Below, piece after piece: positions 773-26,232 of a stretch of 33,104 nt of DNA. The position numbers and the translations under genes were made by a program. The notes beneath the pieces were generated by a model. That model made no database searches, was not told the DNA's origin, and saw only the letters and a list, made by a program, of their open reading frames with translations. How positions within the stretch are numbered: position 1 is the stretch's first letter; every line of letters begins with the position of its first letter. The stretch comes from an uncultured Desulfuromonadales bacterium (GTDB lineage: Bacteria; Desulfobacterota; Desulfuromonadia; Geobacterales; CAIOGM01), in the NCBI GenBank assembly GCA_903929485.1, contig CAIYUY010000343.1, positions 1-33,104 on the forward strand, read 5' to 3'.

Positions 773-2077
773 ATGCTGAAACGTTTTCCCCCCGTCGCCG
801 CCGATGCCGTGTCCCTGGCTGCTCACCAACTGGCTGGGTTACAGTGGACGGTGGCTCATGCGTATGAAAATTCTCCCTTCTATAAGGAACGTCTCACCGC
901 CTCCGGCATGGCTCCGTCGGAGATCCGTTCCCTTGATGATCTGGAGCGGCTTCCCTTCACCACGGCGGATGATCTGAGGGAAGAGTATCCTTTTCCGCTC
1001 CGCTGTGTCCCCTTTGAAAAACTGGTGCGGGTTCACTCCTCCACGGGCACCACCGGCAAGCGGAAGATGCTCTGTTATACGCAAAAGGACATCGACGACT
1101 GGGCGGAAATGTTCGGTCGCTGCTATGAGTTGGCGGGGCTTACGGCAGCGGATCGGGTGCAGATCTGCGTGGGGTACGGTCTTTGGACCGCGGGGATCGG
1201 CTTCCAGTTGGGGTGTGAACGGTTCGGCGCCCTGGCCATACCGGTTGGGCCGGGGAATCTGGAGATGCAGGCCGGATTTCTGGTGGATCTGCAGACCACG
1301 GTGGTTTGCTGCACCGCCTCCATGGGGCTTCTCCTGGCGGAAGAGGTGCAGAAACGGGGTTTAAGGGATAAGATCGCCGTGCGCAAGGTTATCCTGGGCG
1401 CCGAACGCTCCAGCGACGCCATGCTGACCAAGATCCGTGACGCCCTGGGGGCCGAGTCGGTTCATGATATCCCTGGACTCACGGAGCTCTACGGTCCCGG
1501 CATCGGCCTTTCTTGCGCTCATCCCGGGGCCGGCGGCGCAATCCACTACTGGGCCGACTACTACATCCTGGAGGTCATCAATCCCGAAACTCTCCTGCCG
1601 GTTTCACCCGGCCAGGTGGGGGAGATGGTGGTGACTTCGTTGTGCAAGGAAGGGGCGCCGTTGATCCGCTACCGTACCCGGGACCTGACCCGACTGATCC
1701 CGGGAGCATGCCCCTGTGGCTGCACCCTGCCGCGCCATGACCGGATTCTCGGCCGTTCCGATGATGTGGTCATCTTCCGGGGGGTCAACATCTACCCCGG
1801 TCAGATCGACGAGTTGCTGGCCACGGTTCCCGGTCTTGGGAGTGAATTCCAGGTGGTGTTGGATCATCGGCCCGACGGTAAGGATTACATGACCATCCGG
1901 ATCGAACGGGCCGAGGGTACTCCCTCCACCTGTGATTCTCCCATGACCAAGGCCATTTCTTCTGTTATTAAACACAAACTTATGGTCTCCTGCGAGACGG
2001 AGATCCTCTCCTATGGCGAACTTCCCCGTTCTGAACGGAAAACCAGGAGGATGTTCGACAATCGTCGGTTCGAGTGA
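773..2077 (+). CDS. paaK: Phenylacetate-CoA ligase family (AMP-forming)
   Basis: Cytoplasmic adenylate-forming enzyme that activates an arylacetate (phenylacetate or indoleacetate) to its CoA thioester with ATP, or makes ATP in the reverse direction. The 434-residue product is the usual PaaK size. Visible motifs are the phosphate loop SSTGTTGKRK (89-98), TELYGPG (about 237-243), the hinge region IRYRTRDLT (298-306), a Cys cluster CPCGC (313-317) and GRSDDVVIFRGVNIYP (327-342). ATG 773 is preferred to a GTG at 746 because GGAG lies nine bases upstream and the protein then begins in the family's usual way. It follows iorB after a repeat-containing gap, so the pair probably serves aromatic amino-acid breakdown with energy gain; which acid is used cannot be seen. 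Confidence 0.85.
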   Translation: MLKRFPPVAADAVSLAAHQLAGLQWTVAHAYENSPFYKERLTASGMAPSEIRSLDDLERLPFTTADDLREEYPFPLRCVPFEKLVRVHSSTGTTGKRKMLCYTQKDIDDWAEMFGRCYELAGLTAADRVQICVGYGLWTAGIGFQLGCERFGALAIPVGPGNLEMQAGFLVDLQTTVVCCTASMGLLLAEEVQKRGLRDKIAVRKVILGAERSSDAMLTKIRDALGAESVHDIPGLTELYGPGIGLSCAHPGAGGAIHYWADYYILEVINPETLLPVSPGQVGEMVVTSLCKEGAPLIRYRTRDLTRLIPGACPCGCTLPRHDRILGRSDDVVIFRGVNIYPGQIDELLATVPGLGSEFQVVLDHRPDGKDYMTIRIERAEGTPSTCDSPMTKAISSVIKHKLMVSCETEILSYGELPRSERKTRRMFDNRRFE

Positions 2078-2104
2078 AATTAAAAGTAGAAAAAGGATCA
2101 AGCC

Positions 2105-3460
2105 ATGGACACGAAGATTATTCTGGGTGAGGAACATATTCCCAAGCAGTGGTATAACATCATCCCCGACATGCCGGGGCCGCTGCATCCCATTATCAAT
2201 CCTCGGACCCTCCAGCCCGCGACGCCGGAGGATATGCTGGCCATCTTTCCCATGGCCATCATTCAGCAGGAGATGTCAACGGAGCGTTGGATCGACATTC
2301 CCCATGAGGTGCGGGAGATCTATCGCCTCTGGCGGCCGTCCCCCCTTTACCGGGCGCGGCGGCTGGAACTGGCTCTTCAGACTCCCGCCAAGATCTACTA
2401 CAAGTACGAAGGGGTGTCACCGGCCGGTTCCCACAAACCCAACTCCGCCATTCCCCAGGCATGGTATAACAAGCAGGCGGGGATCCGCCGTCTGGCCACC
2501 GAGACCGGCGCCGGACAATGGGGGAGTTCACTGGCGCTGGCATGCAGTATGTTCGGCCTGGAGTGCACCGTCTACATGGTCAAGGTTTCCTGTTCGCAGA
2601 AGCCGTACCGTAAGAGCATGATGCAGCTTTGGGGCGCCCGGGTCATTCCGTCACCTTCGGAATTCACCAACTCCGGCCGCTCCATTCTGGCCCACGATCC
2701 GGAGTGTCAGGGAAGTCTGGGGATCGCCATCTCCGAGGCGGTGGAGGATGCCGCCACCCATGCCGATACCAACTATGCCTTGGGGAGCGTCCTCAATCAT
2801 GTCTGTCTCCATCAGACCGTCATCGGCCTGGAGGCCAGGGAGCAGATGAAGATCGCCGGTGACTACCCCGACGTGGTCATCGCCTGCTGCGGAGGCGGTT
2901 CAAATTTCGCCGGTCTCTCCTTCCCCTTCATCGCCGATCGAGCCGCCGGTAAAAAGGTCCGCGCCCTGGCGGTGGAGCCGGCTTCCTGCCCGACCCTGAC
3001 CAAGGGGGTCTATGCCTTCGATTATGGCGATACCGCCAAGGTCGCCCCCATCGCCATGATGTACACTCTCGGTCATGACTTCATGCCTCCGGGTATTCAT
3101 GCCGGCGGCCTCCGCTACCATGGCGAGTCGCCGCTGATTTCCCAGCTTTACCATGCCGGAGAGATCGAGGCCAACTCCTACAAGCAGAATGCCTGTTTCG
3201 AGGGGGCCATTCTATTTTCACGGAGCGAGGGGATCGTCCCGGCGCCGGAGTCGTCCCACGCTGTTCGCGCCGCCATCGACGAGGCGATCCTGGCCAAGGA
3301 GGAGGGGAAGGAGAAAACCATCCTCTTTGGTCTCTCCGGTCACGGCCAGTTGGACATGGGGGCCTACGACGCCTATCTCTCCGGCAACCTGGAGGATTAC
3401 GAATATCCCGAGGCCAAGATCAAGGAGGCCCTGGAGCGTCTGCCCCGAATCGTTCTTTAA
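2105..3460 (+). CDS. trpB2: TrpB2-type PLP enzyme, tryptophan synthase beta-like
   Basis: Pyridoxal-phosphate enzyme of the TrpB2 class, which makes tryptophan from indole and serine or phosphoserine without needing the TrpA partner in the way TrpB1 does. It has 451 residues, longer than classical TrpB, with an N-terminal extension. The PLP lysine is in [10 protein letters not shown] (Lys111), the catalytic Glu in TETGAGQWG (Glu133), and the phosphate-binding loop is CCGGGSN (261-267). It starts 27 bp after paaK and is followed by trpF and classical trpB, so all are probably co-transcribed. Beside IorB and PaaK it may recycle indole; that role is inference. The family call is strong because the extension and the loops differ from the TrpB encoded 0.7 kb downstream. 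Confidence 0.87.
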
Positions 3461-10608: not shown

Positions 10609-10726
10609 ATTATCATGTAAGCCAATAGTATGAAAATAAAAAATTAAAAAAGAATAAAAAACAGGATGTTGAACGGCCTTCGTAAAAAACGGAAGTTAAA
10701 ATTTAAAATAACTAAATGGGGTTAAA

Positions 10727-12148
10727 ATGAAGTTTGCTCGACTCTTTGCTTTGATTTTTTTTAGTATAGTTTCCGCCTCCGGCATTGCAGCTACTCCGCC
10801 GGTGGAACAGCAACTGTCCATTGAAGCGGTACAGGTTGTTTCAATATCTAAGCAAGCTACGATTTTCTTCCGCGCCAAACTTGGAAGTAGACCAATTACG
10901 ACGTTGAGCGAAAATCAGGTGAAGGTCTTTGCCGGCAACACCGAAATGCCCCAGAAGAGCTTTGACGTACAGGCAAAATCACCGCTCTTCCATGCGATTC
11001 TGCTTGACCGCAGCGGCAGTGTTAAAGGCCTCCCGCTGCTGGAGGCTCAGAAGGCGGCTGAACTGTTGGTTAAAGCCATGCCCAATCAGGATCAGGTGGC
11101 GGTTTATGCTTTTTCCGACACCTTGCAACTTTTAGAACCGTTTACACCCAAGCGAGATCAGATTCTTACCGCAATCCGGAGTTTGAAGAGTGACGGTCGC
11201 CGCACTGAACTGAACTTTGCTGTCTATTCGCTGGTAGATCAGCTTGAAATTCAGCGTCCGGGACCGGTATCCATCATCATCCTCTCTGACGGCAAGGATG
11301 AAGGCACCTCATATACCCTTGACAATATCACCGATAAGGCCAGGGCCGCGTCCATCATCCTTTCGGGTGTGGGTAGCAGTCAGATTAATCGTAAATATCT
11401 CCTCTCCCTTGAAAAGCTGAGCCGCTTTACAGGCGGCTATTATACCGATGCCGCCAACGGTATCAGAAGTGAAGCTGATGCCGCCCGTTTGATAAAACAT
11501 TTTAGCAATCGGTCGGCAGTGACTATCTCGTTGGATAATATACCGGCCGGAACTGCTTCTCAAAATGCCACGCTCTCGCTAGTTCATGGCGAGACAGTCA
11601 CTGTGCCTCTAACCATTCGCCTGTTTACCCAAGGAGTGTCAGCCCCGCAACAGTGGTACTTGCGCGGTCAGTTTCTGGGTGTAATTGTTCTTGCTTTAGC
11701 TGGGTTACTTATTTTTGCCATCTATATTAAAAGACGGCGTGACGACTCTACATTTGACGGCTACCCCTGTTCGGTTTGCGGCACGGGACGTTCTGACTCT
11801 GAAGCTCCCTGCGTGAAATGTGCTCTTGAACAACCGCCGACTGAACATCACCAATGGGGTGTCCTTCAGGGAAACTGTCCTGAATTGGCCGGTTGGCAGT
11901 GTGCCTTGGGTAAAACCAGGTACAGTATCGGCAGCGCGGATAGTAACGATATAATTATTCCCATAGCCACGGTTTCGCGCACACATGCCAGCATTCATCT
12001 CAAGGACGGGCATGTTTATCTTGTCGATCTGAAATCTAAAAACGGCACTCGTAGTAACAATGAATTGGTGACAGATGTGGAACTTACCGACGGTTGCAGC
12101 ATCCAGCTTGGTTCCGCCAGGCTGACATTCTTTTTCAAAGGGAGGTAA
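10727..12148 (+). CDS. Exported VWA-domain protein with cytoplasmic zinc ribbon and FHA
   Basis: Likely transmembrane sensor. Order in 473 residues: Sec signal (1-21, cut after GIAA), extracytoplasmic von Willebrand A domain (about 85-265) with an intact MIDAS (Asp94-x-Ser96-x-Ser98 in LLDRSGSVK, Thr160, Asp188 in LSDGKDEG), a beta-rich linker, one membrane helix (about 315-334) closed by KRRR, a zinc ribbon (Cys348, 351, 362, 365) and a C-terminal FHA domain (IGSADSND, VSRTHASI, KSKNGTR). VWA domains bind protein ligands through the metal site; the FHA would dock a phosphorylated partner inside. Coupling an external VWA to an internal phosphopeptide reader is the cluster's most telling feature. 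No close named family is known to me. Ends 7 bp before the next gene. Confidence 0.9.
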   Translation: MKFARLFALIFFSIVSASGIAATPPVEQQLSIEAVQVVSISKQATIFFRAKLGSRPITTLSENQVKVFAGNTEMPQKSFDVQAKSPLFHAILLDRSGSVKGLPLLEAQKAAELLVKAMPNQDQVAVYAFSDTLQLLEPFTPKRDQILTAIRSLKSDGRRTELNFAVYSLVDQLEIQRPGPVSIIILSDGKDEGTSYTLDNITDKARAASIILSGVGSSQINRKYLLSLEKLSRFTGGYYTDAANGIRSEADAARLIKHFSNRSAVTISLDNIPAGTASQNATLSLVHGETVTVPLTIRLFTQGVSAPQQWYLRGQFLGVIVLALAGLLIFAIYIKRRRDDSTFDGYPCSVCGTGRSDSEAPCVKCALEQPPTEHHQWGVLQGNCPELAGWQCALGKTRYSIGSADSNDIIIPIATVSRTHASIHLKDGHVYLVDLKSKNGTRSNNELVTDVELTDGCSIQLGSARLTFFFKGR

Positions 12149-18952: not shown

Positions 18953-20413
18953 TCAACCTCCTGTATTTGTGGTGGAGCTTATAACTTGTACACCGTTAGT
19001 CTGCCCGGTCACTCCTGCCATAAATGCTACTGCTTCAGGATCTGTTATTATGTTATTCGGATAAAATGGCATAGCTAGTTTGAGCCCTGAAAGCGTCCGG
19101 CAACGACTCAAAGCAACATACGCTTGACCAGAGCTAAATGCTCCACCCTTAAAATCTACGTTAATTCTATCGAACGACAAACCTTGTGATTTGTGAATAG
19201 TCACCGCCCAGGCAAGAACTAGAGGGAATTGTTCAGCCTTACCCACCTCCTGCTCTTCGAGCTCTCCCGTACGCTCATTTATTCTATACCTGACATCTCC
19301 CCATACAACTCGACGAACGGTAACGGTGTCACCATGTAACTCTACCACTACACGATCATTATGCAGTTCAATTATTTTCCCTATTTCTCCGTTCATCCAA
19401 GCCTTACTATTTTTGTTAAACATAACTGGAACGCCAATCTTAAGCATAAGGTTGCGCTCGAAAGGAAGATTTTCTTCAACTGTAATTTTGGCGAAACTTC
19501 CTTCAAGTCGTGCAGAGTAACTGACAACATCTCCAGGATGATTATAAAGACTATTTGAGTTTATCGCAAAAGCTAGACTACAAAAACAAGTAACTGTAAT
19601 ATAAAAAGGGTTGTCTGATGTTTTGAATCCCTCGTCAACGCATGAATTGAGAGTTTCGATATCCGAATTGTTAATATTACCCTTGCGGATTCTTCCCAAA
19701 ATTTCACTAAAATCTATTTCAGCTTGGCGATACACGGTAGTTAGTTCAAAAACAACAGGAGCAGAATGTTGCCAGCCAGTACAGCCCCAAAAAAAGAATT
19801 GCTTGTAACCTATTTTTAGCATTAGTCTTTCATCGACCTTATTGACGACCGGAGGCAACTGGAGGGGATCCCCAACTAATATTATCTGCACTCCTCCAAA
19901 TGGTTTTTTAGGGTCTTTACCATTTCGCCTCATGAAATGATCTGTACCGCCGAGTAGATCGCAACGCACCATGGATATTTCGTCGATGATGATGATATCG
20001 CAGGCCTGCGCTTTACCTCTGTTTAACTTATTAGATTTGATATGTTTTTTAGTAATTACTTCTGGAGGGAATTGACAAAAGGAATGAATTGTTTGACCAC
20101 AAATATTCAGTGCAGCAATTCCGGTTGGTGCGAGCATAACAATTTTACGTGTAGTTAATCCCCGAAGATGTGAAATAAGTGTTGATTTGCCAGTGCCCGC
20201 CTGGCCGGTAATAAAAATATTTTCGCCTCGTTGAAAAGCGGCGATAATTGGAATCCACTCTTCTTTGATTTCATAAGTTGGTTTCGGTTCTGGTAGGGTT
20301 CGAACATTTCTGGTAATATTTTTTTCTACGGATTTAATGACAATAGGTGGCTCAAACAGCGTTGATTCCGCTGATTTAACTGGAACAAATAGGGTGCGCA
20401 ACCAACGTAACAT
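18953..20413 (-). CDS. Pif1-like ATP-dependent DNA helicase
   Basis: Superfamily 1B helicase of 486 residues. Motifs in order: Walker A GQAGTGKST (70-78), APTGIAALN (95-103), Walker B IIIDEISM (141-148), GDPLQLPPV (181-189), TVYRQ, a beta-rich insert (about 300-400) and the C-terminal SF1 motif TIHKSQGLSFDRINV (405-419) with GQAYVALSRCRTLSGL (429-444). The set is diagnostic of Pif1/RecD2-like enzymes, which unwind 5' to 3' and clear G-quadruplexes or hybrids. It carries an N-terminal extension and is AT-richer than flanking genes. It sits in the lysogeny direction just downstream of a CI-like repressor, an unusual place for a replication helicase, so it may act as a cargo or defence gene expressed from the prophage. 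GGAG lies upstream of the start. Confidence 0.88.
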   Translation of the reverse strand: MLRWLRTLFVPVKSAESTLFEPPIVIKSVEKNITRNVRTLPEPKPTYEIKEEWIPIIAAFQRGENIFITGQAGTGKSTLISHLRGLTTRKIVMLAPTGIAALNICGQTIHSFCQFPPEVITKKHIKSNKLNRGKAQACDIIIIDEISMVRCDLLGGTDHFMRRNGKDPKKPFGGVQIILVGDPLQLPPVVNKVDERLMLKIGYKQFFFWGCTGWQHSAPVVFELTTVYRQAEIDFSEILGRIRKGNINNSDIETLNSCVDEGFKTSDNPFYITVTCFCSLAFAINSNSLYNHPGDVVSYSARLEGSFAKITVEENLPFERNLMLKIGVPVMFNKNSKAWMNGEIGKIIELHNDRVVVELHGDTVTVRRVVWGDVRYRINERTGELEEQEVGKAEQFPLVLAWAVTIHKSQGLSFDRINVDFKGGAFSSGQAYVALSRCRTLSGLKLAMPFYPNNIITDPEAVAFMAGVTGQTNGVQVISSTTNTGG

Positions 20414-20450: not shown

Positions 20451-20882
20451 TTAAACTGCATCTTTTCCCTGCCTATCTTTTATCAACTCAAGGAATTGTT
20501 CCTCTTTCTGAACACCTCGCTGAATACCCTTCTTAGTGTCACCGTCCATATTCCTCATCATCTGCACTACAGATTTAATCTCAGAATTGTTCCGGAGCAC
20601 ATCCAGAAGATCTAACTCTTCATCGCTGAAACCAATTGCCTTTAATCTTAGATATATTTCACCTACTCCACTTATTACCCATTCGTAGTTAATTCCGCGA
20701 TCGACACATGAAAGCCTGATCTTTTCAAGTGGAAGCGTTCCCCTATTCTTCCGTACCGATAAAGCATCTTTTTTGTAACCTAAAATTTCGGCAACTTTCT
20801 GCTCACTGTCTACGCTGAAGGCAATCATCATCCTGTTTATAATTTCTTGGATACTTTCACGTGAAAGTTTTTCAGTTGACAT
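20451..20882 (-). CDS. CI-like phage repressor (HTH N-terminal domain)
   Basis: 143-residue regulator. Residues about 10-80 match the bacteriophage CI repressor HTH domain: EIINRMMIAFSVDSEQKVAE, LGYKKDALSVRKNRGTLPLE, then a CVDRGINYEWVISGVGEIY segment. The second half is charged and helical (ELDLLDVLRNNSEIKSVVQM) rather than a LexA-type peptidase, so it would not self-cleave on SOS; release from lysogeny would need another route. Transcribed leftward together with the helicase, 37 bp apart. It probably binds the short upstream region with the inverted repeat at 20920-20937. Confidence 0.8.
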   Translation of the reverse strand: MSTEKLSRESIQEIINRMMIAFSVDSEQKVAEILGYKKDALSVRKNRGTLPLEKIRLSCVDRGINYEWVISGVGEIYLRLKAIGFSDEELDLLDVLRNNSEIKSVVQMMRNMDGDTKKGIQRGVQKEEQFLELIKDRQGKDAV

Positions 20883-23795: not shown

Positions 23796-23959
23796 GTCCT
23801 GTTGTCTGCCTGCATAAAAAACTCTGCTCCTACAAGAACAGAGTGCGCCGCAACGATGGACTGAAACAACGCCACTGCCCCGCCACGGGACTCTGTGAGT
23901 GGGCGCAATGGTTGATGAAGAATCATATCCAAGATTTTAAAAGCAAGAGTGAAGAGTGA
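23792..23959 (+). CDS. 55-residue Cys-rich phage ORF
   Basis: TTG-started frame overlapping the previous stop (TTGA). Four cysteines (Cys6, 12, 29, 35) and several Arg/Lys in CLHKKLCSYKNRVRR then QRHCPATGLCEWAQW could bind zinc. The stop falls inside the heptamer repeat at 23945, so the C terminus is repeat-derived. Below 60 codons; no family recognised. Confidence 0.45.
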   Translation: MSPVVCLHKKLCSYKNRVRRNDGLKQRHCPATGLCEWAQWLMKNHIQDFKSKSEE

Positions 23960-23979
23960 AGAGTGAAGAGTGAAGAGTG
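23945..23979. repeat. Heptamer tandem repeat (5 x AAGAGTG)
   Basis: Five perfect copies of AAGAGTG in tandem, followed by AA. Related GTGAAGG-type simple sequence occurs at 31464-31495 (complement) and 32655-32745 in other phage gaps. Confidence 0.85.
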
Positions 23980-24005: not shown

Positions 24006-24218
24006 ATGAATCAGGTGGAAACGGTGATAGCGCGGATCAGGGAACGACAGCAACGGGTGGTGACGAATCATCCCCGTATTGACCCCGACGTTCGGGGCCG
24101 CCTGCTGATGGAGATCACCATCGATGAGGCGGTGATACTGGCCGACGCGCTGGAGACTCCCGAAGCCATTCAGGACGCTCTGCACTGTTGCCTGATGAGC
24201 GAGGGGGAAGGGATATGA
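24006..24218 (+). CDS. Small phage protein, unknown
   Basis: 70 residues, MNQVETVIARIRERQQRVVT, then RGRLLMEITIDEAVILADAL and DALHCCLMSEGEG. Mostly helical; the TIDEAVILADAL segment resembles short phage proteins of unknown role. ATG 24006 follows ACGGAGAG. After its stop the dense small-gene packing is interrupted by 400 bp. Confidence 0.55.
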   Translation: MNQVETVIARIRERQQRVVTNHPRIDPDVRGRLLMEITIDEAVILADALETPEAIQDALHCCLMSEGEGI

Positions 24219-24302
24219 ACCGGATCAGCGAAAACGGGCGGAATGGTGCAAATTTCTTTAATTTTGTCCTGTGGATAACCGTTCAAGTATCTGTTTTTTC
24301 CG

Positions 24303-24559
24303 GTGTCCAACTTATCGGACATAGATCTTTCCTTAAAGATAAGTATCCCACACGACGCCTTTCAACAGCCGGCGCCGACGTGTGGAAAAACCTTTATGGG
24401 TGCGCCCCGAAAGCGGCAATGGGAGCGCCGATAAGAACCCATCGGCACGCCCATTGCGAATCGGGACGAAGCTTGAAGTCGATCCCGACTGAAAAGCAAA
24501 GTCAGGCGGCTGACTACCACCCGGTAACGGCTTTATTCCCCCGGTTTGCCCTGTAGGCA
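24303..24559 (+). ncRNA. Candidate structured RNA (or hairpin-rich DNA) in early operon
   Basis: The 400-bp gap 24219-24617 has no convincing gene but at least eight local stems: 24304-24321 (TGTCC/GGACA), 24325-24340 (ATCTTT/AAAGAT), 24348-24385 (CCACACG/CGTGTGG), 24404-24417 (GCCCC-GAAA-GCGGC, a GNRA tetraloop with one C-C mismatch), 24417-24456 (CAATGGG...CCCATTG outside GCCGAT/ATCGGC), 24461-24488 (TCGGGA/TCCCGA), 24500-24515 (AGTCAG-GCGG-CTGACT) and 24547-24559 (TGCC/GGCA). The first loop, ACTTATC (24310-24316), is complementary to GATAAGT (24338-24344), a possible pseudoknot or switch. I recognise no known RNA family. A 113-codon frame from 24215 crosses it but looks non-native. Alternatives are a replication origin or unrecognised coding sequence. 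Confidence 0.5.
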
Positions 24560-24617
24560 GAGTCAAAGGAAGCTTTTAAGGAACATAACCTCCAGTCAGG
24601 CAACTTAAGGATTTATC

Positions 24618-25097
24618 ATGGCGCACTCTACCAATGTCATCTTCCAACCCAATTCAACCCAAATCAGCATCATGAAATTGGTGCACGGCTATATGAAAAA
24701 ATATAAAAAGCAGTGGAACATCATGGATCAGAAGTGGATTTTAAAGAGCCTGAAAGATTTCTACGGCCTGACCCTTTCCCGCTCCGCCCTGAACTATAAT
24801 CTGGCGATTTTGCGCGCGGAAGGAATTATTGAGACGGTGAAGCGCCACAAACGGGACGAAGTGACGGGAGCTTTCGTCTGTCGTCCGACACTGTACCGGA
24901 TGACCACGAAGTTGAAGAAGTTTTTTAACGACTTGGCGGTCTACTTCAAACGGTGCGGCTGGACACCCAGTCAGAAACAGATGGCGATGGGGATCGTGGG
25001 GACGGTGGGAGCGGTAACCAGTCGGGACGCGGCGCAACGGGCGGTGTTGGATGAGCGGAAGCGCCGCGCGGTCCAGGCCAGAAGGAGGATACGATGA
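24618..25097 (+). CDS. Winged-helix phage replication/regulatory protein
   Basis: 159 residues. Residues about 15-80 form a winged helix: SIMKLVHGYMKKYKKQWNIM, LTLSRSALNYNLAILRAEGI, then a wing with KRHKRDEVTGAF and CRPTLYRMT. The C-terminal part has a second basic stretch ending RRAVQARRRIR. It starts the replication pair: its stop overlaps the next gene's start (ATGA). By position it would be the replication initiator (lambda O-like role), recognising an origin perhaps in the hairpin-rich region just upstream; this role is inference. AAGGATTTATC precedes the start. Confidence 0.68.
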   Translation: MAHSTNVIFQPNSTQISIMKLVHGYMKKYKKQWNIMDQKWILKSLKDFYGLTLSRSALNYNLAILRAEGIIETVKRHKRDEVTGAFVCRPTLYRMTTKLKKFFNDLAVYFKRCGWTPSQKQMAMGIVGTVGAVTSRDAAQRAVLDERKRRAVQARRRIR

Positions 25098-25432
25098 CAC
25101 CCAGCGAGGGAATACACTTCGTTAAGTTACTGGAAAAGCATTACAAGCAGGATTTTCACTCGGAACTAGTAGATCTGGTCTGGCCGAGAATCATCATGTG
25201 CGAGATTAAGGCCCTGGCCATTGCCGTCAATATGGTAAAGAGGAAATACAAGATACTTCCGGAACCAGAGATATTGGCGCGAATCACGGAAGGTCAGCAT
25301 AAGCGGTTGGCGACGGAGCGGACAGAGGTGCTGAAACAGGAAGTGGCGGTTGCTACCAAGACTGATGTCGGGATGCCTGACTGGGTTAAAAAGAGAGCGT
25401 ATGAGTTGGGGCTGAGGAGTTCGCCGACATGA
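25094..25432 (+). CDS. Probable phage helicase-loader-like protein
   Basis: 112 residues. HFVKLLEKHYKQDFHSELVD, WPRIIMCEIKALAIAVNMVK and KRKYKILPEPEILARI follow the pattern of small G39P/DnaI-N-type loader proteins, in which four helices are followed by a conserved FPxxxEI-like turn (here ILPEPEI). It starts in ATGA overlap with the winged-helix gene, a normal initiator-loader pairing. The end GMPDWVKKRAYELGL is a short extra helix. Family is suggested by pattern, not certain. Confidence 0.5.
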   Translation: MTPSEGIHFVKLLEKHYKQDFHSELVDLVWPRIIMCEIKALAIAVNMVKRKYKILPEPEILARITEGQHKRLATERTEVLKQEVAVATKTDVGMPDWVKKRAYELGLRSSPT

Positions 25433-25695: not shown

Positions 25696-25975
25696 ATGAT
25701 GTCTCATGAGTTGGTGGCGGCGAGGAAGAGTTTGAAACTTTCCCAGGTGGACCTTGCTGATATCCTGCTGACTCCGAAGCGGACACTTCAAGATTGGGAA
25801 GGGGGGGAAGTGTCGCTTGCCGGGAACCCTGGAGCTCTGCATGAGGTTTTTGGTGAGAGACAATGAACAGGCCATGATGCAGGTGCAGCGTCTGGTGGAG
25901 GATAACGCCATGATGGGGCTTATCAGAAGTGATGTTTCTGTAATGTCGAAAGAGCATGAAGGGGGTGAAGGGTGA
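25696..25975 (+). pseudogene. XRE-type HTH regulator with frameshift in a G7 run
   Basis: Frame one, from ATG 25696, gives MMSHELVAARKSLKLSQVDL then LTPKRTLQDWEGG, an HTH_3-like start as in NadS/HigA proteins, and stops at 25864-25866 after an unrelated tail. Skipping one base at the run of seven G (25801-25807) opens KCRLPGTLELCMRFLVRDNE, then QAMMQVQRLVEDNAMMG up to 25975, the expected continuation of such proteins (DWE...GT...L.MR). With six G the gene would be intact at about 92 residues. It may be a mutation, a base-call error, or slippage-controlled expression. It overlaps the next gene by four bases only if the second frame is used, which supports that frame as original. Confidence 0.6.
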
Positions 25976-26232
25976 CGAGGCATGGGGCGTTCTTGAGAGT
26001 AATGGAACGGGTGGCTGTGGAAATGGGGGGGGAAGCGTCCCGCGTGATGTTGGCCCTGTTTGTGGCGGAGTCGGGAGGGGAACGGCTGATGGTGCCCGAT
26101 GAGCATGATTTGTTTCTGGAGTGTCGTAACAAGAATATTCGCGACCGTTACCGGGGGCACAATGCGGAGGAACTGGCGCTGAGGTACTCGGTGAGTGTTA
26201 GCCAGGTAAAGCGGATTGTGGCGGGACAATAA
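25972..26232 (+). CDS. Mor-like transcription activator
   Basis: 86 residues. The C-terminal half RNKNIRDRYRGHNAEELALR then YSVSVSQVKRIVAGQ is the helix-turn-helix of the Mor/C family of Mu-like middle and late activators. The N-terminal part (FLRVMERVAVEMGGEASRVM) would be the dimerisation helix region, shorter than in Mu Mor. GTG start with AAGGGGGTGAAGG upstream. Placed last in the early operon, just before a terminator and the terminase genes, it is well placed to turn on late genes. Confidence 0.78.
   Translation: MTRHGAFLRVMERVAVEMGGEASRVMLALFVAESGGERLMVPDEHDLFLECRNKNIRDRYRGHNAEELALRYSVSVSQVKRIVAGQ

Follow-up and report, generated by a model that had tools for sequence, protein, structure and literature searches.

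The origin of phage lambda is described as containing inverted-repeat sites together with an AT-rich tract; its iterons are inverted repeats, the hairpin potential of which is discussed in the sections available of the same source (PMC7466680). In phage SPP1 the loader gene directly follows the gene for the origin-binding protein, and an AT-rich unwinding element is present (PMC6316719, excerpts). In the iteron plasmids P1, RK2, F and pSC101, DnaA boxes for the host protein occur together with a DUE, and the initiator, Rep, is of the winged-helix type (excerpts of PMC4980987). Finally, DnaA bound to a hairpin with a DnaA box loads DnaB at the A-site of the ABC primosome (PMC6127211, available sections).

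We studied a non-coding gap of 399 nt that, according to the ORF list, separates an ORF ending at 24218 from an ORF starting at 24618. The window (i.e. the whole stretch of DNA analysed, 33,104 nucleotides) contains a prophage. The gap lies in its early operon, with a CI-type repressor gene at 20451-20882 on the minus strand and the terminase and head genes further to the right. A preliminary description had called the operon gap-free except at this place, which is roughly right, the smaller neighbouring gaps having been judged by eye only.

24219-24617, unstranded: whole intergenic element, putative origin region plus initiator-gene leader; found at this position in six loci
24618-25097, plus strand: winged-helix protein, proposed origin-binding initiator (would work like lambda O or SPP1 G38P); model pLDDT 71.6
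25094-25432, plus strand: small helical protein, proposed helicase loader (would work like lambda P or SPP1 G39P); model pLDDT 80.7

The element is probably the DNA replication origin of a temperate phage family found in Geobacterales and in metagenomes, which would rely on the DnaA of the host together with an initiator resembling O and a loader of the P/G39P kind. The most likely account, as far as our analysis goes, would be a lambda-like module in which the origin is located 5' of the initiator gene and uses the DnaA of the host. What is directly seen is a layout that is conserved and includes DnaA boxes, a rise in A+T, arms of the main hairpin H3 that change in a compensatory way, and the two genes that accompany the element. 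We infer from this DnaA binding, initiator binding, unwinding, helicase loading and origin activity.

Comparison with the described systems

The module resembles that of lambda in that repressor and CII-like genes are followed by those for initiator and loader (as seen at locus L009, which reads integrase, repressor-like, CII-like, element, winged helix, loader-like). The model of the proposed loader resembles lambda P at a middling Z, and inverted-repeat sites plus an AT-richer tract occur in lambda ori, as far as the available account describes it, and in the element. Unlike in lambda, the origin would lie upstream of the initiator gene and not within it, DnaA boxes are present, an iteron array was not seen, and the initiator has no Pfam match. 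With SPP1 oriL/oriR and the proteins G38P and G39P the locus shares, on the excerpted description, the order of an origin-binding gene and, directly after it, a small loader gene (both putative here) and an AT-rich unwinding element (here a candidate); the model of the proposed loader matches G39P (1no1) over 63/67 residues. In contrast, SPP1 has a helicase gene of its own and direct repeats in its origins, and the excerpts mention no DnaA boxes. The iteron plasmid origins, as excerpted, share the host DnaA boxes, the DUE and the winged-helix initiator, whereas here no iterons were found and the initiator is a different, small protein without Pfam match. A search for iterons gave only short repeats of two or three copies, with one dyad H1 per locus, from which the initiator sites are guessed.

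Two integrase-like genes, 1469-2629 (minus strand) and 10691-11740 (plus strand), flank the early region on the single contig of L009.

Relatives of the locus

Five further loci encode the flanking winged-helix protein, at 37-50% identity to that of the window, and in 5/5 of them the element is found at the same place. Profile searches located these close homologs in Oryzomonas japonica, at L007 and at several loci that duplicate it, and in the four IMG/VR contigs of L009, L150, L151 and L153. The comparison rests on six distinct loci: the window, L151, L153, L007, L009 and L150. The contig of L150 was found first, as L145, by the spacing pattern of the element, and afterwards again by the protein. 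Measured from the position of the second box to the start codon, the leader spans 260-350 nt in the six distinct loci and has the same core. The close winged-helix family is present in 2 of 141 genomes of the order and in 2 of 277 of the class, one of the two being the window's own genome.

At the DNA level the element had no match in 50,697 phage records, and in 293 related genomes the sole full-length match was the window itself; four partial matches of 25-45 nt, in three of these 293 genomes, are taken as chance. No homolog of the winged-helix protein was found in the phage records, nor did the first, one-sequence scans of viral_contigs and genome_contigs yield any. Distant winged-helix matches occur in G412, G000:C315, G549 and G539. 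Of the distant loci, L019-L022 were searched with model R1 and lack the element (no match with E of 1 or less); L018, which encodes the L019 protein a second time, was outside this search. R1 comprises the H1 pairs only. As the six loci served to build it, their high scores follow by construction. It was searched against 133 sequences, those left out being mostly family duplicates or chance hits. The pattern hits L143 and L147 were discarded as unrelated phages, and L156 (G169, E 0.041) was rejected because its context does not match. The literature searched, of partial coverage, held no description of the element, and a limited search found no study of Geobacterales phage origins.

The distant relative in G412 is present in two copies with the same score (L019, 8492-8977, and L018, 4504-4989), one of which lies, by eye, directly 3' of an HNH-like gene.

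DnaA boxes, A+T-richer segment and dyad

Read with the genes, the core consists of minus-strand DnaA boxes, an A+T-richer stretch, the dyad H1, an AGAT motif, ATCC/ATCT and the hairpin H3, in this order.

24270-24278, minus strand: DnaA box TTATCCACA, exact consensus; position kept in 6/6 loci
24268-24344, unstranded: A+T-richer segment, candidate unwinding element; 61% AT versus 46% both upstream and downstream of it
24304-24321, unstranded: dyad H1, 18 bp, TGTCCAACTTATCGGACA; candidate initiator-binding site
24323-24348, plus strand: AGATC motif to ATCC, near-constant spacing; this spacing pattern found L145
24325-24340, unstranded: small hairpin ATCTTT-CCTT-AAAGAT; as such not kept in all relatives
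24348-24385, unstranded: main hairpin H3, outer stem CCACACG/CGTGTGG, inner stem CGCC/GGCG, loop of 11 nt, 3'-side bulge
24381-24389, minus strand: DnaA box TTTTCCACA, perfect in the window; overlaps the 3' arm of H3

Boxes of the form TTWTNCACA are found at least once in 6/6 loci (11 perfect ones in total), all on the minus strand. In the 33 kb window TTWTCCACA occurs four times versus 0.59 expected, two of the four falling within the 399-nt gap. At the conserved place the boxes form a perfect pair, 12 nt apart, in L007, L009 and L150, the second copy is degenerate in L151 and L153, and the window has a single box. The box at the 3' arm of H3 has one-mismatch versions in L151 and L007 and none in L153, L009 and L150. 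At the host DnaA locus, TTATCCACA and TTATGCACA lie immediately outside the part that encodes the C-terminal domain of DnaA, and therefore the host uses the same DnaA-box consensus.

The DnaA boxes at L009 5683-5706, L150 4319-4342, L151 4693-4715 and L153 4703-4726 lie within the frame of the upstream ORF or at its C-terminal end, where they translate as VENPV- or VDK-like residues. Because the boxes are translated within that frame, it appears from the sequences that the DNA site dictates the tail of the upstream protein.

The A+T-richer stretch measures 67-78 nt and ends at the hairpin. Its AT content is 55-64% in 6/6 loci versus 37-46% in the upstream flanks, a moderate rise. H1 reads TGTCCAA...TTGGACA or TCTCCAA...TTGGAGA and is clear in four of the six loci, partial or poor in L009 and L150. 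The AGAT motif is AGATTAG in four relatives and AGATC in the window and L151. GC skew does not switch at the element, which counts against an origin.

The word GCCAA(C/G), which by eye resembles half of H1, is found at or shortly 5' of the initiator start codon in L007, L153, L150, L009 and L151, and is possibly a candidate second initiator site.

If the element is an origin, host DnaA would bind the minus-strand DnaA boxes and the winged-helix initiator encoded directly downstream would bind the neighbouring dyad(s). Jointly they would open the A+T-richer segment, the P/G39P-like loader would deliver the host replicative helicase, and theta replication by host enzymes would ensue. The inverted repeats would in that case act as DNA, i.e. 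as dyad sites and/or extruded hairpins. Such a compact lambda-like replication module (origin, initiator and loader) for Geobacterales phages could seed small replicons, and its dependence on host DnaA would be directly testable.

The main hairpin

H3 occupies the same slot in 6/6 loci with arms that differ in sequence and keep their complementarity:

window: CCACACG/CGTGTGG
L151: CAGGGGGCGG/CCGCCCCCTG
L153: AGGCGGGCG/CACCCGCCT, one A-C
L007: CAGGCG/CGCCTG
L009: CACCAGGCG/CGCCTGGTG
L150: CAACTAGGCG/CGCCTAGTTG

An inverted repeat starts in this slot, which was picked post hoc, in 6/6 loci versus 0.04-0.09 per locus by chance. The inner stem CGCC/GGCG of the window can be read by eye as GGCG/CGCC in L007 and L153, their minimum-energy folds differing in detail. 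When arms were cross-paired, the own arms gave -21.7 versus -16.1 kcal/mol on average for the others, with some foreign GC-rich arms pairing equally well. Taken alone, the H3 fold of L007 does not exceed chance (z -0.94). From the MAFFT alignment, in which H3 is by eye misaligned, RNAalifold derived a weak consensus with a covariation term of +1.47. The covariation that had been proposed as a check for RNA is present in H3, but it would equally be expected of a DNA hairpin or of a dyad that serves as a binding site.

The overlap of a perfect DnaA box with the H3 arm in the window recalls the A-site hairpin, from which the locus differs in that the overlap is partial and kept in only 3/6 loci, one mismatch allowed. 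It is a rather doubtful proposal that H3 with the box at its foot forms an extruded DNA hairpin at which host DnaA and the phage loader would place the helicase, i.e. an ABC-primosome-like A-site in the origin of a dsDNA phage whose initiator and loader families lie outside the curated libraries. The motif (A/G)AGCGG belongs to PriA-type assembly sites, a point that our literature search did not confirm; by eye it is present in the window and L009 and not in all loci, and it was dropped.

Folding strength and pairing

The preliminary description had seen the gap as rich in stems, and this was borne out by z-scores of about -3.3 on both strands. The plus strand of 24219-24617 folds at -134.1 kcal/mol versus -114.7 for shuffles (z -3.30, 0/100 shuffles as good), the minus strand at -144.2 (z -3.43, 1/100 as good). 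Among 14 coding stretches of 300 nt from the neighbourhood, one likewise gave a z of -3.12. The leaders gave the following z-scores (plus strand, minus strand):

window: -3.48, -5.73
L151: -2.89, -2.15
L153: -3.27, -1.70
L007: -2.82, -4.33
L009: -0.71, -1.49
L150: -1.90, -1.16

The whole-leader value for the plus strand is weak in L009 and L150, and the mean excess over the six loci is about equal on the two strands. The six leaders contain 27 inverted repeats versus 10.1 +/- 2.6 in 100 shuffles (maximum 17), and six that score at least 8 versus 1.0 in shuffles. Two hairpins lie downstream of the core:

24416-24457, unstranded: long hairpin with imperfect arms of 17 nt that form 15 Watson-Crick pairs; sequence and position not conserved
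24500-24515, unstranded: hairpin AGTCAG-GCGG-CTGACT, 5' of the initiator gene; sequence not conserved

The long hairpin is present as described earlier (arms 88% complementary). The loop complementarity that had been reported extends to 8 nt in the window, between CTTATCGG (24311-24318) and CCGATAAG (24428-24435), and no such 8-nt complementarity exists in the other 5/5 loci.

In a conserved plus-strand RNA, stems are expected to gather G-U rather than A-C pairs. The 25 inverted repeats of the six loci contain 208 Watson-Crick, 4 G-T and 8 A-C pairs. Since the folding excess is found on both strands and pairing is nearly pure Watson-Crick without G-U excess, these small numbers lean towards inverted repeats that would act at the DNA level rather than as coding-strand RNA; an antisense RNA is conceivable. 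As a caution, strong folding within a gap of an operon can come from DNA-level inverted repeats, and comparing the two strands and counting G-U versus A-C pairs helps to tell such repeats from RNA.

An Rfam scan of the gap at gathering and relaxed thresholds gave no family (best sub-threshold hit 20.1 bits versus 70 needed), in agreement with the earlier statement that no known family was recognised, and a tRNA/tmRNA search of the region gave none. For the open frame 24188-24556, the other five loci yielded no relative with E < 0.48, compared with 1e-35 to 1e-51 for the flanking gene, and for this reason we regard the gap as not a conserved gene. The conserved protein in the gap frame that would have spoken against a non-coding element was thus looked for in five relatives and not found. 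Promoters and terminators in the region are at chance level: no plus-strand promoter exceeds chance, and one promoter was predicted on the minus strand versus 0.8 expected.

Alternative explanations

The preliminary description had left the choice between a structured ncRNA, a cis-regulator of replication genes and an origin. The origin has since gained evidence from the DnaA boxes, the A+T segment, the dyads and the adjacent initiator- and loader-like genes, while the "RNA-like" framing gained none. An RNA from the operon transcript, either a 5' leader or a processed ncRNA, might control translation of the initiator and loader or act in trans, which would suit the coding-strand z of -3.3, the compensatory change of the H3 arms and the position within the operon directly 5' of the initiator gene. 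We consider it unlikely, given the equal folding excess of the antisense strand, the stems with 4 G-T versus 8 A-C pairs, the lack of an Rfam match and the long-range loop pairing of the window that is missing in 5/5 relatives; it also leaves the DnaA boxes and their strand bias unexplained.

A comparably small chance is given to an operator bound by DnaA and the initiator, which would regulate transcription of the replication genes (by autoregulation or DnaA titration), the origin being located elsewhere. H1 is operator-like, the winged-helix fold of the neighbour resembles PadR/RTP, and many phage intergenic regions carry DnaA boxes. However, the region lacks an above-chance plus-strand promoter, and an operator would need neither the length nor the complexity of this layout. 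It is very improbable that the boxes and hairpins do not act together and are remnants or drifting sequence between genes: although the downstream hairpins are not conserved in sequence, the order and spacing of the core are kept in six loci whose winged-helix proteins are only 37-50% identical to that of the window.

Proteins encoded downstream

The guesses made earlier for the two downstream genes are supported by structure prediction. The product of 24618-25097, the model of which was built from a six-row alignment, models as a winged-helix DNA binder. It matches winged-helix proteins with Foldseek E from 1.9e-3 and VIA Z up to 10.6, the best match being the replication terminator protein of B. 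subtilis (E 1.9e-3), followed by PadR-like regulators and others. Among curated families, including the known phage initiators (O, G38P, DnaD-like), it has no Pfam match, and the best PHROG (E 0.053) is not an initiator family.

The loader-like protein, which models as a helix bundle, has five relatives at 16-22% identity. Its model ranks lambda P on DnaB first (Z 6.1, 70 residues, 3.1 A) and SPP1 G39P second (Z 6.0, 63/67 residues, 2.3 A), at Foldseek E-values above 1 and with Z values of about 6 that, being below 8 for a helical protein, lie in the range where common arrangements are warned of. PCH-2, which is not a replication-initiation protein, is third and a DnaD model fourth. The top structural rows being mostly replication-initiation proteins is suggestive of a P/G39P-like loader. 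Searches of loader families gave no Pfam match for 6/6 members at E up to 5, and none in PHROGs for the two members scanned.

Tandem DnaA boxes in other viral contigs

At least 120 viral stretches (viral_contigs, L023-L142) carry tandem DnaA boxes with a spacing of 12 nt, in many cases as part of longer arrays. Among the matches listed, 83/103 distinct tandem-box contexts lie outside same-strand ORFs of at least 70 aa and 20/103 inside an ORF of at least 70 aa, and five near its end. The 56 proteins scanned downstream of tandem boxes, again among the matches listed, are a mixture (terminase, SSB-like, tail, one replication initiator). Tandem boxes by themselves were ruled out as a general mark of phage origins, as the downstream ORFs have no general link to replication genes. 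Boxes alone prove little, because they are common in viral contigs and have no such link.

Other observations in the window

A PIF1/Dda-like helicase gene (18953-20413, minus strand), which may belong to the phage or to the host, adjoins the prophage repressor. Between the early operon and the terminase genes, 25972-26232 encodes a regulator that matches PHROG late transcriptional activators. A perfect GAGTGAA tandem repeat of four units at 23947-23974 overlaps the start of the ORF at 23970.
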